Shown: in pieces, positions 59,001 to 64,000 of the stretch | How positions within the stretch are numbered: the first letter of the stretch is position 1 | How the letters are laid out: every line of letters begins with the position of its first letter | NCBI RefSeq assembly: GCF_964204645.1 | Contig: NW_027437452.1 | Span: 1-64,000 of the forward strand | Length of the DNA: 64,000 nt | Direction: 5' to 3' | DNA from: Tubulanus polymorphus | Taxonomy: Eukaryota > Nemertea > Palaeonemertea > Tubulaniformes > Tubulanidae | Translations under genes and position numbers: made by a program | Notes under the pieces: model-generated | The model's input: the letters and a program-made list of their open reading frames with translations, nothing else | Told to the model about the DNA's origin: nothing | Database searches by the model: none

Positions 59001-60637
59001 GCTTTTACGCATCGACATTGTCGTTTTTTCGATAGGGGGAATATTTGATACGAAAACGTCTTTTCTCGCGCTGAACGACGTTTTCGGGTCGAAAAGTGCT
59101 TTTCCTGACGATTTGAGCGCTTTTACGCATCGACATTGTCGTTTTCCCGATAGGGGGAATATTTGATACGAAAACGTCTTTTCTCGCGCTGAACGACGTT
59201 TTCGGGTCGAAAAGTGCTTTTCCTGACGATTTGAGCGCTTTTACGCATCGACATTGTCGTTTTTTCGATAGGGGGAATATGTGATACGAAAACGTCTTTT
59301 CTCGCGCTGAACGACGTTTTCGCGTCGAAAAGTGCTTTTCCTGACGATTTGAGCGCTTTTACGCATCGACATTGTCGTTTTTCCGATAGGGGGAATATTT
59401 GATACGAAAACGTCTTTTCTCGCGCTGTACGACGTTTTTGCGTCGAAAAGTGCTTTTCCTGACGATTTGAGCGCTTTTACGCATCGACATTGTCGTTTTC
59501 CCGATAGGGGGAATATTTGATACGAAAACGTCTTTTCTCGCGCTGAACGACGTTTTCGGTCCGAAAAGTGCTTTTCCTGACGATTTGAGCGCTTTTACGC
59601 ATCGACATTGTCGTTTTCCCGATAGGGGGAATATTTGATACGAAAACGTCTTTTCTCGCGCTGAACGACGTTTTTGGGTCGAAAAGTGCTTTTCCTGACG
59701 ATTTGAGCGCTTTTACGCATCGACATTGTCGTTTTTTCGATAGGGGGAATATTTGATACGAAAACGTCTTTTCTCGCGCTGAACGACGTTTTCGCGTCGA
59801 AAAGTGCTTTTCCTGACGATTTGAGCGCTTTTACGCATCGACATTGTCGTTTTTCCGATAGGGGGAATATTTGATACGAAAACGTCTTTTCTCGCGCTGT
59901 ACGACGTTTTTGCGTCGAAAAGTGCTTTTCCTGACGATTTGAGCGCTTTTACGCATCGACATTGTCGTTTTCCCGATAGGGGGAATATTTGATACGAAAA
60001 CGTCTTTTCTCGCGCTGAACGACGTTTTCGGGTCGAAAAGTGCTTTTCCTGACGATTTGAGCGCTTTTACGCATCGACATTGTCGTTTTTCCGATAGGGG
60101 GAATATTTGATACGAAAACGTCTTTTCTCGCGCTGAACGACGTTTTCGGGTCGAAAAGTGCTTTTCCTGACGATTTGAGCGCTTTTACGCATCGACATTG
60201 TCGTTTTTTCGATAGGGGGAATATTTGATACGAAAACGTCTTTTCTCGCGCTGAACGACGTTTTCGCGTCGAAAAGTGCTTTTCCTGACGATTTGAGCGC
60301 TTTTACGCATCGACATTGTCGTTTTTCCGATAGGGGGAATATTTGATACGAAAACGTCTTTTCTCGCGCTGTACGACGTTTTTGCGTCGAAAAGTGCTTT
60401 TCCTGACGATTTGAGCGCTTTTACGCATCGACATTGTCGTTTTCCCGATAGGGGGAATATTTGATACGAAAACTTCTTTTCTCGCGCTGAACGACGTTTT
60501 CGGGTCGAAAAGTGCTTTTCCTGACGATTTGAGCGCTTTTACGCATCGACATTGTCGTTTTTCCGATAGGGGGAATATTTGATACGAAAACGTCTTTTCT
60601 CGCGCTGAACGACGTTTTCGGGTCGAAAAGTGCTTTT
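41041..60637. repeat. Satellite B array, homogeneous 118-bp units (about 166 copies)
   Basis: Same orientation and evident homology to satellite A, but with fixed differences: AAAAGTGCTTTTCCTGACG replaces AAATGTGCTTTTCCCGTCG, TTTTACGCATCG replaces TTTTGCGYATCG, CATTGTCG replaces CATTTTCAT, and GATAGGGGGAATATTTGATACG replaces the GGGGAAAACTTGATGAG part. The period is 118 bp almost throughout; the 128-bp form is absent. Variation is limited to a few sites: GTCTTTT/GTATTTT, CTGAACG/CTGTACG, TCGGGTCG/TCGCGTCG/TTGCGTCG/TCGGTCCG, and TTTCCGAT/TCCCGAT/TTTCGAT/TTTCGTT. Length changes are few, such as a 4-bp deletion at about 48983 (GCACATTG for GCATCGACATTG). The array ends where the next element cuts a unit after GTGCTTTT. 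Confidence 0.97.
42268..48449. repeat. 17- and 19-unit higher-order repeats in satellite B
   Basis: Rare variants mark the period. A GAATTC-creating variant occurs at 42268, 43094, 45100 and 47342 (spacings 826, 2006 and 2242 bp, i.e. 7, 17 and 19 units). A CGCGGTGAACG variant occurs at 44201, 46443 and 48449 (2242 and 2006 bp, i.e. 19 and 17 units). The order of common variants between the marks is the same. The 19-unit and 17-unit versions differ by two units (236 bp). Confidence 0.85.
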
Positions 60638-61018
60638 TGCAACAGAAAATAAGTCGGAACAAATTGTTAGATGGAAAAGGCCAAGCGCCCCAGCTGCTTG
60701 ACGTTTATTTGAAAAATTATACCAAAACACGTGACAACCTAATTTGCTGTCACGTACAAAATTACAATATCATCAATCTAACAAAGAAATACAAAGTCAT
60801 ACAAAACTAACTAGGTCAACCGCCCCAGCTGGATTGACCTAGTTTCTGATTTAAACAATTATCGGAAAAAATACTACGCGGTCAAACGCCCCTGCTGTTT
60901 GACCTATTTATGAATACAAGTAACTACACCACTATTACTAAGAAGTCAAACGCCCCAGCTGTTTGACCTAGTTCGGAGTAAAAAGTCCTCGATTAATCGT
61001 AAGTGGGCTATAAAAATG
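60634..61018 (-). repeat. Terminal 385-bp repeat B2 of the PAT/Ngaro-type element
   Basis: Identical, as far as I can compare by eye, to 61274-61658 at an offset of 640 bp. The outer edge falls in the T run of GTGCTTTTTGCAACAG, where the satellite gives GTGCTTTT and the element begins in TTTTTGCAACAG, so the exact join is ambiguous by about 4 bp. No target duplication can be tested with one end visible; recombinase-inserted elements are not expected to have one. Confidence 0.9.
60682..60967. repeat. Four-hairpin array in repeat B2
   Basis: Four stem-loops: 60682-60700 (CAAGC/GCTTG), 60811-60842 (CTAGGTCAA/TTGACCTAG), 60880-60904 (GGTCAAAC/GTTTGACC) and 60945-60967 (GTCAAAC/GTTTGAC). All carry the loop GCCCCAGCT or a close variant (GCCCCTGCT in the third). 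Stems 2 to 4 share GTCAA/TTGAC. The loop is as conserved as the stem, suggesting a bound site and not only a fold. Confidence 0.9.
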
Positions 61019-61048
61019 GGCTAGAAAAGATTAATCGTAAGAGGGCTA
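60991..61048. repeat. 20-bp direct repeat across the repeat/segment boundary
   Basis: GATTAATCGTAAGTGGGCTA at 60991-61010 recurs at 61029-61048 with one change (GAGGGCTA). The first copy is inside repeat B2 and the second in the middle segment, 38 bp apart. Only the first copy is present next to the other repeat (61631-61650), because the recombinase gene side follows there. Confidence 0.85.
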
Positions 61049-61273
61049 ACAAATGCCGTAGGCGCAGGTAGGGGATGGAGGGTGGTAAAATGTTAAACTT
61101 TACGCCTGAGTTCCGGAACTGAAAAGGACGTGTTTACTTCGCGTTGATTGGCTGGTTGGCTAATAGCACGAGGGCGGCGCCACCGGCTGGTGCTATGTTG
61201 CCCGCCGGGAGAAGAACTTCATTTTCTGTCGCAAAAATGCTGATGGGCAACTGGTCATTCGCACATCTTTTGT
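61019..61273 (-). repeat. Middle segment A2 of the split direct repeat
   Basis: 255 bp between the two 385-bp repeats, single copy in this window. In the PAT/Ngaro layout it should be repeated as A1 at the missing 5' end. It is GC-richer than the flanking repeats around GGGCGGCGCCACCGG. It contains a hairpin ATAGCAC/GTGCTAT at 61163-61196 and one arm of the inverted repeat at 61221-61237. No coding role is evident; short frames across it are artefacts of the repeats. Confidence 0.75.
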
Positions 61274-61290
61274 TTTTTGCAACAGAAAAT
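61221..61290. repeat. 17-bp inverted repeat spanning the A2/B1 junction
   Basis: ATTTTCTGTCGCAAAAA (61221-61237) and TTTTTGCAACAGAAAAT (61274-61290) are inverted copies with one mismatch, separated by 36 bp. The right arm is the outermost part of the 385-bp repeat, so the same arm also forms the element's outer end at 60634-60650. In this element class the B1/A2 junction has the same sequence as the junction of the circular intermediate, so paired arms there are a good candidate recombinase site. Confidence 0.8.
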
Positions 61291-61658
61291 AAGTCGGAAC
61301 AAATTGTTAGATGGAAAAGGCCAAGCGCCCCAGCTGCTTGACGTTTATTTGAAAAATTATACCAAAACACGTGACAACCTAATTTGCTGTCACGTACAAA
61401 ATTACAATATCATCAATCTAACAAAGAAATACAAAGTCATACAAAACTAACTAGGTCAACCGCCCCAGCTGGATTGACCTAGTTTCTGATTTAAACAATT
61501 ATCGGAAAAAATACTACGCGGTCAAACGCCCCTGCTGTTTGACCTATTTATGAATACAAGTAACTACACCACTATTACTAAGAAGTCAAACGCCCCAGCT
61601 GTTTGACCTAGTTCGGAGTAAAAAGTCCTCGATTAATCGTAAGTGGGCTATAAAAATG
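61274..61658 (-). repeat. Internal 385-bp repeat B1 of the PAT/Ngaro-type element
   Basis: Matches 60634-61018 without a difference that I can find. Its inner edge is TAAAAATG at 61651-61658, after which the copies diverge (CC here, GG at the other copy). Identity between the two copies indicates a recent insertion or recent conversion. Confidence 0.9.
61322..61607. repeat. Four-hairpin array in repeat B1
   Basis: Same four stem-loops as in the outer repeat, at 61322-61340, 61451-61482, 61520-61544 and 61585-61607, with unchanged stems, loops and spacing. Confidence 0.9.
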
Positions 61659-61664
61659 CCACAA

Positions 61665-61682
61665 AGCCACCCACCTGTGGCT
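61665..61682. other. Short stem-loop just downstream of the recombinase stop
   Basis: AGCCAC and GTGGCT pair around a CCACCT loop, in the gap of about 36 bp between the recombinase stop (61695) and repeat B1. It could be a transcript 3' structure. There is no run of T on the coding strand to support a terminator, and the element is eukaryotic. Confidence 0.4.
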
Positions 61683-61694
61683 GAGCCCACACGA

Positions 61695-62648
61695 TCACCT
61701 CGCAATCCTTATGTATTTACGGAAGGCCTCGGAATTCCACCGGCCTGCCGCCCTAATCTGTGCGTCGGGGACTCCCCTCGATGCTGCATCGGTTGCAGCG
61801 CCGATGCGGAAGGAGTGACCCTTGAACGCCCTAGGTGACAGTTTACACCATTCCAGCAGGCACACGAGGCGACGGTCGAATGCTCGCCTTAACCACGGAG
61901 CTCCACTGCAGTCTATAAAAAGCGGGCCTGGACGCGGGCCTCGGCGCTGTAAATAAGTGGTGATAGTCGATCGGGCATCGGTAACCCTGGTCGAAAGGGA
62001 GGAAAAATCAACCTGTATGACCTGAGGGCCAACGCGTGCGCTGTGCTTAAACTTCTTTAGGACTATTTGGAGACCAAAGGCGGTGAGTGCCACGTCTTCG
62101 AGCTGTACTACACTCTGCGTTAGGGCGAGTGTCCTCGGTAAGAGCTCCCCTAGGCGGAAATAACCACAAAACGCGATGGTCATAACCGATTTCACTAAAA
62201 GGCGGTTGTAGGACAGACTTTCCGTCACAGCAAGACAGTCAAATAAACGGGCCAAAACATCTGCGGTAATTGGGAGACGAACGTCGAAACTCCGCGATAG
62301 ATTTCTCGCGCCTGCTAACATTTTCTGAATGATAAATGATCGACAAGGGTCGGCTTCCCCTTTTATCTTGTGAAAATATGAAATTGCCGACAATGTCGAC
62401 GCAGTAGCTGCGGCCGACAAACCCTTTTCGTGCAAATGTGCGACGAACAAGACGATGGAATATTCTGAAAGTGGGACCAAAATTGTGATGCCCAACTGCT
62501 GGCCAAACGCGACTAGCTTACCCCAAGACCGATCATAGGCCTTCGCGGTTTCCGTCGTCAAAGCCGCTGCTAACAGGGCGTCTATAGTAGGTTTATATTT
62601 GCTGGCAGCCAAGACTGGGGAACCGGCGTAGGTTGAGGGTCGGCCCAT
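61695..62648 (-). CDS. Tyrosine recombinase of the PAT/Ngaro-type element (317 aa)
   Basis: It should integrate the circular double-stranded cDNA by site-specific strand exchange, with no staggered cut. Residues ~20-115 form the SAM-like DNA-binding domain (LTTETAKAYDRSWGKL, then LFVAHLHEKGLSAAA). The catalytic domain has the first Arg in FCGYFRLGELL (Arg 165), a lysine-rich strand (LKKFKHS, ~198-203), HSFRIGAAT giving His 278 and Arg 281, a Trp in AGRWNSEAF (304) in the position often held by His/Trp, and the nucleophile Tyr 312 in FRKYIR. The R-K-HxxR-W-Y set is complete and the length is normal. The ATG at 62648 lies inside the end of the RT-RNase H frame, a 67-bp overlap in another frame, so it is translated by reinitiation, frameshift or a separate message. 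No break is seen. Confidence 0.92.
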   Translation of the reverse strand: MGRPSTYAGSPVLAASKYKPTIDALLAAALTTETAKAYDRSWGKLVAFGQQLGITILVPLSEYSIVLFVAHLHEKGLSAAATASTLSAISYFHKIKGEADPCRSFIIQKMLAGARNLSRSFDVRLPITADVLARLFDCLAVTESLSYNRLLVKSVMTIAFCGYFRLGELLPRTLALTQSVVQLEDVALTAFGLQIVLKKFKHSARVGPQVIQVDFSSLSTRVTDARSTITTYLQRRGPRPGPLFIDCSGAPWLRRAFDRRLVCLLEWCKLSPRAFKGHSFRIGAATDAASRGVPDAQIRAAGRWNSEAFRKYIRIAR

Positions 62649-64000
62649 GGCGCTTCCATGCGAAATCGACGAAACTGGAACCGAGAAAGTAGGTCGGGTA
62701 AAATGTTATATTTTCCGGGTATATGTTCGCTAATGAAAACGATGTTAAATTTCAAACAAACAGAGACCATCTTGCGTACGAGGGTCATCATAGCCTTGTC
62801 CCGTGAAGATTGTTTATTAATAACGTGGACCACCGATTGGTTATCGGAATTAAAACATATAGTCTTATTTTTCCAATGTGCCCCCCAGATTGATAGTGCG
62901 GCAACGATTGGGTATAGTTCAAGGACCGCGATCGAACAAGACTTCCAGCTTAAAGGCCACGAACCGTGGAACCAGTGGGTGCCGTAAACGGCACCGTAAC
63001 CAAAAGCACCGGCGGAATCAGTGTACAAATTCAAACGATCGTTAGTGAGCTTACGCTCATCGATGAAAAATGATCGACCGTTAAAATTTGAAAGGAAGAC
63101 GTTCCAGACCCGGAGATCATTCTTCGCGCTCGCCGTCAGTGAAATGTGCAACGAACGGTGAGGCACGCCCACGGTGAGGTCGATCAGCCTCCTGAGAAAC
63201 GGTCGTCCCGGTACGATGACTGAGCAGGCAAAATTCAACGTCCCTAGTAGTGACTGTAACTCTCGCAAAGTCACTTTCCGTTTAGACAGGAATGTTTCCA
63301 CCAGGGCCATGCATTTTGCCAATTTATCTTCCGGCAAACGTGCCTCGTGCAAAATAGTATCGAGCATGATGCCGGCAAACGGTAGGATTTGCGACGGGCG
63401 AAAAGTTTTGACTTCCTTTATGGGTACGCCGAGCTGTTCGCATAGGTCAAGAAAATTTATCAGATCGCGGTCGCACTTAGATTTGCCCTTAGCAATAATC
63501 AAAAAATCATCTAAAATATGTACAATGTGGGAAATCCCGAGCTTATTAATCGCAATCCATTTAATACACGACGAGAACCGGTCAAAAATCGCGCAGGAGC
63601 TGGCTGCGCCCATGGGCAGAACAGCGTCGACGTAAAAAAGACCGTCTAAAGTGAAACCCAACAGTGGTTGGTCTAACTTATGTATAGGGATTATCCTGAA
63701 AGCCGACTCTATGTCGGTCTTTGCTAGGAAAACATCGTCACCAAGGGACTTGATGATTTTAATCGCATCCTGGATTGTCGAGTATTTAATGGTGGATGCC
63801 TCCTCGGGAATAAAATCGTTTATCGACGAGCCTTCCGGGTACGATAGATGATGAATAACCCTAAAACCCCCGGAGCTTTTAGGAACTACCCCTAGGGGTG
63901 AAACGTGAATTGGGGTACCGTCCGGCATGAATGGAGTCTGAAAAGGGCCCAGAACTCTACCCGTTGCAAGCTCTTTGTTGACTCTTTCGCGTATCACGTC
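62582..64000 (-). CDS. Reverse transcriptase-RNase H of the PAT/Ngaro-type element, 5' end outside window
   Basis: The frame is open to the right edge. An apparent start at 63997 is a GTG inside the frame, so the true start is beyond the window; numbering here is from that codon. RT motifs are in order: FRVIHHLSYP (45-54), KTDIESAF with catalytic Asp 95, LPMGAASSCAIF (127-138), HILDDFL with Asp 163 and 164 (LDD in place of YxDD, as in the DIRS group) and ILPFAGIMLD (204-213). RNase H follows with Asp 327 (YTDSAGAFGYGA), Glu 360 (VLELYP), Asp 385 (SDNQS) and HIPGKYNILPDLLSR (His 425, Asp 435). All expected catalytic residues are present. It ends at 62582 inside the recombinase start region. 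No methyltransferase-like domain follows RNase H. The protein would copy the element RNA into DNA in the virus-like particle or nucleus. Confidence 0.92.
   Translation of the reverse strand, partial: DVIRERVNKELATGRVLGPFQTPFMPDGTPIHVSPLGVVPKSSGGFRVIHHLSYPEGSSINDFIPEEASTIKYSTIQDAIKIIKSLGDDVFLAKTDIESAFRIIPIHKLDQPLLGFTLDGLFYVDAVLPMGAASSCAIFDRFSSCIKWIAINKLGISHIVHILDDFLIIAKGKSKCDRDLINFLDLCEQLGVPIKEVKTFRPSQILPFAGIMLDTILHEARLPEDKLAKCMALVETFLSKRKVTLRELQSLLGTLNFACSVIVPGRPFLRRLIDLTVGVPHRSLHISLTASAKNDLRVWNVFLSNFNGRSFFIDERKLTNDRLNLYTDSAGAFGYGAVYGTHWFHGSWPLSWKSCSIAVLELYPIVAALSIWGAHWKNKTICFNSDNQSVVHVINKQSSRDKAMMTLVRKMVSVCLKFNIVFISEHIPGKYNILPDLLSRFQFRRFRMEAPWADPQPTPVPQSWLPANINLL

Follow-up and report, generated by a model that had tools for sequence, protein, structure and literature searches.

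The window, by which we mean the whole 64,000-nucleotide stretch of DNA analysed here, is filled almost throughout by a tandem satellite with a 118-bp unit (positions 12–60637; longer periods, including 236, 246 and 354 bp, also occur), and this satellite array is the insertion site of a minus-strand retrotransposon whose 3′ half makes up the last 3.4 kb of the window. A reverse transcriptase (RT) ORF that runs past the window end (62582–64000, minus strand; Pfam RVT_1, E 3.4e-12) overlaps a tyrosine recombinase (YR) ORF of 317 aa (61695–62648, minus strand; Pfam Phage_int_SAM_1, E 5.5e-6), in which the catalytic-domain residues GYFRLGEL, HSFR and a C-terminal KYIR can be picked out by eye. 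Downstream of the two ORFs follow, in sense order and all on the minus strand, an internal repeat B1 (61276–61658), an internal repeat A2 (61087–61275), a 68-bp link and the terminal repeat B2 (60636–61018), which forms the outer end of the element. B1 and B2 are 383-bp stretches without a single difference at an offset of 640 bp, and the partner of A2, A1, lies outside the window at C35:67127-67315.

Split direct repeats of the form A1...B1-A2-B2 are present, with the internal pair downstream of YR, and by this layout, which matches the Ngaro layout given in the portion of PMC4157794 used here, the element is a Ngaro-like YR retrotransposon. The same portion of that source has the absence of a methyltransferase domain set Ngaro apart from DIRS and PAT, and Pfam searches for such a domain found none in the RT (window part) and YR ORFs (E 0.001) or in the Gag-like and 5′ ORFs (E 1). 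The Gag-like ORF, of 323 aa, lies upstream of RT (L063:277-1248, minus strand); it gave no significant Pfam match, and its C-terminus carries cysteine/histidine clusters that by eye resemble CCCH and CCHC knuckles. The 5′ ORF is GDSL-like, matching Lipase_GDSL_2 weakly (E 1.4e-5; 26.1 bits, under the curated 32.9), and an SGNH hydrolase ORF occurs in some Ngaro elements. Between the GDSL-like and gag ORFs we also observed tandem repeats (L063:1283-2140, plus-strand frames), one frame of which consists of repeated EAGKLSPYTNYYFLGTCP.

The ends of the element lie in A-tracts. Of 17 listed outer B ends (GTTGC), 16 run directly into four or more A; L028 does not, and L002 and L050 are one end counted twice. 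Four or more A also stand immediately before the outer A start (CAAAAGATG) in 11 of 14 cases. In the window copy the satellite resumes on both sides, and flanks and ends share just a T/A-tract with no further duplication; this copy integrated without a target-site duplication. Elsewhere in the genome, L004, L005 and L008 each consist of an A-B unit bordered immediately on both sides by host DNA, the structure predicted for solo forms left by A1 x A2 recombination. Three copies of the window's own family (F1, below) on contig C8 (L006, L007 and L008) share a host flank past the B end, which would fit a duplication of the locus once the element was in place.

Four hairpins of one plan in each B repeat

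Each B repeat contains four hairpins, all on the minus strand, which we number from the element end inwards as H1 (60680–60702 in B2; 61320–61342 in B1), H2 (60809–60844; 61449–61484), H3 (60880–60904; 61520–61544) and H4 (60945–60967; 61585–61607). On the sense strand the four have a common plan, namely a stem of at least 7 bp that closes in C-G, a bulged A, two GC/GC pairs and a tetraloop, which in the order H4, H3, H2, H1 reads UGGG, AGGG, UGGG, UGGG. H1, for example, is GUCAAGC-A-GC-UGGG-GC-GCUUGGC, and H2 is built of 11-bp arms, a bulged U, 2 bp, the bulged A, GC/GC and UGGG, its one-base bulge being present in most copies. Read on the plus strand, the spacer between the arms is GCCCCAGCT in H1, H2 and H4 and GCCCCTGCT in H3 (general form GCCCC(A/T)GCT); on the sense strand, what appears in AGCUGGGGC as a loop is itself structured, consisting of the bulged A, the GC/GC pairs and the tetraloop UGGG. 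RNAfold of each hairpin alone returns the common fold. H1 of B2 is found as an inverted repeat, by folding and with a covariance model of the hairpin, as are H2, H3 and H4 of B2; in B1, H2, H3 and H4 are found as inverted repeats and with the model, and H1 with the model. Run up to E 1 on the window together with the 5′ part of the element, retrieved in addition, this model matched these eight hairpins, all on the minus strand, and nothing else. H1 is the hairpin nearest the element end, about 40 bp inside it, and one base sense-upstream of H1 stands AATAAA, a poly(A)-signal-like hexamer (60704–60709, minus strand) found at the same place in other copies.

The preliminary description of this DNA, made from the sequence alone, had proposed four hairpins with one loop in each terminal repeat, and this holds for B2 (60680–60967), to an extent beyond dinucleotide shuffles, and for the identical 383-bp copy B1 (61320–61607). 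Its statement that stems 2–4 share GTCAA/TTGAC is right for H2–H4 and too narrow, as H1 also has the core bar one mismatch, which on the sense strand is a U-G wobble and leaves only five exact pairs on the plus strand. Its summary that the stems vary and the loop stays is only half right: the GTCAA/TTGAC core and the loop are conserved to about the same degree, and between two families of elements (F1 and F2, below) the loop itself differs as a block.

Chance inverted repeats can be ruled out as the source of the array. Inverted repeats whose arms match exactly over 7 bp or more, with spacers of 5–15, number four in the B repeat (H2, H3, H4 and a fifth; H1 is not counted), whereas 500 dinucleotide shuffles averaged 0.216 and never gave more than three. 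For spacers of exactly 9 the count is two (H3 and H4), compared with a shuffle mean of 0.018 and a maximum of one. The fifth inverted repeat, ACGTGACA / TGTCACGT, lies between H2 and H1 (60729–60755 and 61369–61395, assigned to neither strand) and has perfect 8-bp arms around an 11-nt spacer unrelated to those of the other four; it is absent from the preliminary description, and none was found in the F2 sequences inspected. A known Rfam RNA was also considered and rejected: 60600–64000 gave one match, outside the hairpins (E 0.31; 24.2 bits, against a gathering threshold of 87).

Pattern searches of the genome separate from background to differing degrees. Patterns with the 8-bp and 9-bp stems each gave 12 matches and their backwards controls none, whereas a 23-letter pattern with up to three mismatches gave at least 138 matches (control 75) and arms-only patterns gave at least 210 (control 128) and 57 (control 41). 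Judged by these backwards controls, the weak matches are largely background. At least one further match with exact arms has another loop (C2:20491639), and a similarity search of the 268-Mb genome with the B repeat returned at least 46 matches.

The array and its loop in related elements

We sorted the related loci into working groups, F1 to F5, by repeat similarity and recombinase identity. F1 comprises the window element and the copies L001–L012, which have the window's array, with one hairpin altered or absent in a few copies. F2, whose recombinase (C6:11203189) is 55% identical to that of the window over residues 2–303, has four hairpins in series, GUCAAAC/GUUUGAC, GUCAAAAC/GUUUUGGC, GUCAAAAAC/GUUUUUGAC and GUCAAGC/GCUUGGC, with stems of 7, 8, 9 and 7 bp and equal arms in all 34 scored hairpins. 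Four hairpins are also present at L038, where one closes with U-A instead of C-G, and a two-hairpin group (L033, L034 and L036) retains H4 and H1; a recombinase fragment beside L036 is 39% identical to that of the window over 91 residues. At L039 (541–605), H1 is present in tandem duplicate, 38 bp apart, and the second has the loop UAAG.

The genome also houses a family further removed from the window element. At its six loci (L064, L065 and L069–L072, with recombinase matches of 32–60%, the higher percentages covering short stretches), the covariance model found nothing at E 1. These six account for part of a set of 13 regions downstream of other recombinase matches in which the model likewise found nothing at E 1; the remaining seven follow partial recombinase matches, are possibly truncated and carry little weight. 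Because this more distant family is without the motif, the array is a clade feature, and we can rule out that it is a general trait of all Ngaro-like elements. The absence of hairpins from related elements, which the preliminary description had regarded as telling against it, is thus real for the six-locus family, but F2, L038 and the L036 group have them. The distant family instead has a single hairpin, GUCAUUUAU-ACUA-AUAAAUGAC, with another loop, 13 nt past AATAAA in all eight occurrences. A hairpin at the site past AATAAA may therefore be more widespread than the array. Among H1-like matches, the hexamer stands just before 31 of the 37 scanned, 15 of the 31 being F1 copies.

Tandem B-A units of 566–568 bp that retain the hairpins were observed at two loci, L025 and L023 (near C6:12.91 and C6:13.90 Mb), where they adjoin an F1-like gag start that is 93% identical over about 60 aa. 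These loci appear to be non-autonomous derivatives with multiplied end repeats, and their retention of the hairpins would fit a cis-acting signal.

The hairpins are better kept than the rest of the repeat between diverged families; equal drift would have counted against the preliminary description. Among 19 non-F1 loci found by repeat similarity only (L013–L031), identity with the window occurs in 0.366 of loci at hairpin positions and in 0.223 elsewhere, a difference that 20 of 394 circular shifts of the hairpin mask equalled. In a set of 33 diverged loci, 15 of which were found via hairpin patterns (L033–L048 without L037), the values are 0.400 and 0.170, with three of 394 shifts as good. 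Conservation is uneven within this set (H4 0.35, H3 0.33, H2 0.19, H1 0.74), H2 being little kept, and the best-kept part of the repeat is H1 with its surroundings up to the repeat end. When one sequence of F1 is aligned with one of F2, with gap columns excluded, which flatters the spacers, the hairpins are identical at 22/23, 20/23, 20/24 and 21/23 aligned positions; four of the five non-hairpin segments also keep similarity (z 2.5, 5.3, 4.2 and 5.3), and for the H3–H2 spacer 90 of 200 shuffles align equally well (z 0.1).

Covariation was assessed in an alignment of 19 hand-picked related hairpins, from which the 8- and 9-bp stems (four of the 23 rows of the fuller alignment) were left out. 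The covariation score (0.228 versus 0.140 in shuffles) and the share of paired cells (96.5% versus 92.8%) were each reached by none of 500 shuffles. Two of the five pair measures are unremarkable, namely changes on both sides of a pair (2 versus 1.4; 247 of 500 shuffles as high) and further pair types (7 versus 5.9; 28 of 500). Among the four stems, the co-variation of paired bases claimed in the preliminary description reduces essentially to one pair, the sixth, and to stem length. At pair 2, U-A (9), U-G (6) and C-G (2) together with two unpaired cases make up the 19 hairpins, a wobble path that is paired on the sense strand only.

The tetraloop is family-specific. Among scored F1 hairpins it is UGGG in 52 of 68 and AGGG in 16 of 68, and all 16 of the latter have the flanks of H3; in F2, 30 of 34 are UAGG and each of the remaining four is an isolated departure. 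UAGG occurs in none of the 68 scored F1 hairpins and UGGG in none of the 34 scored F2 hairpins. These counts come from a regular expression that requires at least six pairs and arms differing by no more than one base; decayed hairpins escape it, and the 17 "other" loci scored alongside are a chosen set. Copies within a family are not independent, and the real unit of comparison is the hairpin position. Flanking sequence (AATAAAC ahead of H1 and CTTTTC behind it; TTC behind H4) allows H1 and H4 to be matched between F1 and F2, and both hairpins differ at the same loop base. UAGG is also found in the second and third hairpins of F2, whose correspondence to H2 and H3 of F1 is uncertain. The loop differs, then, as a block between F1 and F2. 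Since the stems differ in length, gene conversion would need to halt at the loop edges to produce this pattern, and selection by one reader of all the loops appears the simpler reading.

What may read the hairpins

Our preferred reading, put forward with moderate confidence, is that the array constitutes a set of family-specific RNA recognition tags that a protein of the element would read on the element's own RNA. Three parts of this reading are inferred from the sequences, namely that the hairpins act as RNA, that they are read by a protein of the element, and the identity of that protein. If the Ngaro layout is assumed, a sense RNA from A1 to B2 would carry two B copies and with them eight copies of one hairpin, and an element-encoded RNA-binding protein could read bulge and loop and so select its own RNA. 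Were this reader Gag, the outcome would be packaging into particles; were it RT, cDNA synthesis would start close to the 3′ end, H1 being one base past AAUAAA and about 40 nt short of the element end. We put forward packaging by Gag tentatively, consider recognition of the 3′ end by RT a fainter possibility, and assign what confidence remains within the tag reading to another element protein. A packaging signal in the RNA, which was among the roles offered in the preliminary description, is accordingly retained as one of two leading options.

It is improbable, in our estimation, that the repeats are instead double-stranded sites for YR or an accessory protein, with inverted half-sites around a 9-bp spacer. 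The dyad symmetry and the 9-bp spacer would suit such sites, as would an extension of the right arm (CCTAGTT or similar, plus strand) common to H2–H4 even without a left-arm match, and the spacer is common to all the hairpins, as it is between sites in recombinase overlap regions. Against this, the element ends in an A-tract at a distance of about 40 bp or more, the GTCAA and TTGAC half-sites move apart from 13 through 15 to 17 bp as the F2 stems lengthen, and the hairpins start at 0, 64, 129 and 265 in F1 but at 0, 70, 172 and 232 in F2. Because paired length differs between hairpins, outer and inner helices are offset by one base, and half-site and hairpin spacings vary, a folded single strand is favoured over a duplex site. 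Recruitment of the recombinase at the crossover and a part in cDNA circularisation, both among the roles offered in the preliminary description, are not supported as the primary reading, given the A-tract ends and the spacings that vary between families.

The sense RNA is likely the acting form. The sense strand is favoured because two U-G pairs, one in H1 of both families and one in H3 of F2, become C-A mismatches on the antisense strand, and because of the wobble path at pair 2. Folding energies are −13.2 (sense) versus −8.4 (antisense) kcal/mol for F2 H3 and −11.0 versus −9.1 kcal/mol for H1; F2 H2 and L038 H3 fold better antisense. Over the whole B repeat the sense fold (z −2.55) is weaker than the antisense fold (z −3.97), and in the sense minimum-energy structure H3 pairs with H4 in place of separate hairpins. 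One-sided changes in single copies show no skew towards G-U (about 13 G-U versus 10 A-C in a hand tally that omits rows out of register and the U-G that H1 has inherited).

Comparably improbable is that a host protein binds the hairpins, as RNA or as DNA, and acts in transcript stability, 3′-end processing or transcription. The proximity of H1 to AATAAA in the 31 of 37 H1-like matches is what such a protein might lead one to expect, as is the different hairpin past AATAAA in the distant family (8/8 occurrences, six loci), but if one host protein were the reader, families sharing a genome would not be expected to differ in the loop as a block.

More doubtful still is that the hairpins form in single-stranded cDNA and are read there by YR in the manner of integron attC sites, in which, according to the part of PMC2727003 relied on here, a YR recognizes a single strand that folds and leaves extrahelical bases. 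The evidence from paired length and bulge would serve a folded cDNA as well as an RNA, but the element ends do not lie within hairpins, and four to eight copies exceed the need of one recombination site; nor did a box of the attC type stand out by eye. On this account, to which we give the same slim chance, YR would read the bulged A and loop in the hairpin series, and the family loop would be a code that blocks action across families; if true, a eukaryotic retrotransposon would be putting folded single strands to an attC-like use. Because the ends sit in an A-tract about 40 bp outside the hairpins, the hairpins are not crossover sites. Core sites of the loxP/FRT type, with crossover in the spacer between the arms, are ruled out on the same ground, as is, for the integrated ends, strand exchange inside a folded hairpin as in attC.

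Least plausible is that the array has no function and reflects one inverted repeat duplicated repeatedly, with similarity kept by conversion or recent descent, because although local duplication is real (the doubled H1 of L039, 38 bp apart), the flank-matched H1 and H4 both differ between F1 and F2 at the same loop base, and one loop sits on stems of unequal length, so that conversion tracts must stop at the loop edges.

Comparison with known systems

We know of no such array in this class of elements. The claim of the preliminary description that none has been described in PAT/Ngaro ends stands within the open literature searched, where we found no hairpin array in these repeats (the founding Ngaro descriptions lie outside that scope), and the word "hairpin" is absent on a term search of three papers on YR elements (PMC4157794, PMC9210276 and PMC3783388). 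The four-hairpin array in each B repeat sets the present element apart from described Ngaro-type elements. Stem-loops in RNA have, however, been tied to cDNA priming in the related DIRS class, where they were postulated to prime DIRS RNA (PMC3601003, citing other work, in the section used here).

The plan of the MS2 operator is a stem, a bulged A, 2 bp and a tetraloop, and the present hairpins resemble it by analogy only. The array is also like the dispersed packaging signals of MS2 and the hepatitis B virus core, in which several stem-loops with one recognition motif occur in one RNA, as described in the excerpts used of PMC4751978, PMC7612645 and PMC8677749. Unlike those signals, the hairpins here are clustered in an end repeat and are nearly identical copies, and we draw the parallel as an analogy without claiming homology. 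With integron attC sites, as outlined in the same part of PMC2727003, the hairpins share a folded strand, an extrahelical base and an element mobilised by a YR; they differ in that the crossover lies elsewhere, the hairpins are short and in series, and a DNA form is only putative.

The selection of RNA, the priming of cDNA and the making of circular forms in Ngaro, PAT and DIRS elements have, to our knowledge, been largely inferred to date, and a countable, family-specific cis-acting element would provide a handle on RNA selection, priming and circularisation in all three. Two families of one genome with different common loops offer a ready-made system for swaps, and the apparent non-autonomous copies that keep the hairpins point to where use in trans may be sought.

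The closest tested precedent, by analogy, appears to be the recognition of stringent LINE 3′ tails. In the zebrafish LINE ZfL2, whether the cognate protein recognizes the 3′ stem-loop depends on the loop, and stems can be swapped, and in UnaL2 a bulged base in the 3′ stem-loop matters (PMC4176376, in the passages used). The present hairpins are similar in their family-specific loop, exchangeable stem, bulged base and predicted position near the RNA 3′ end, and dissimilar in that there are four per repeat and eight per element, in a different class of element with a different integration chemistry, and known from sequence alone. Stem-loop tags that act in cis are already familiar from retroelements, and what appears to be new here is the arrangement of such putative tags as a series array in this class.
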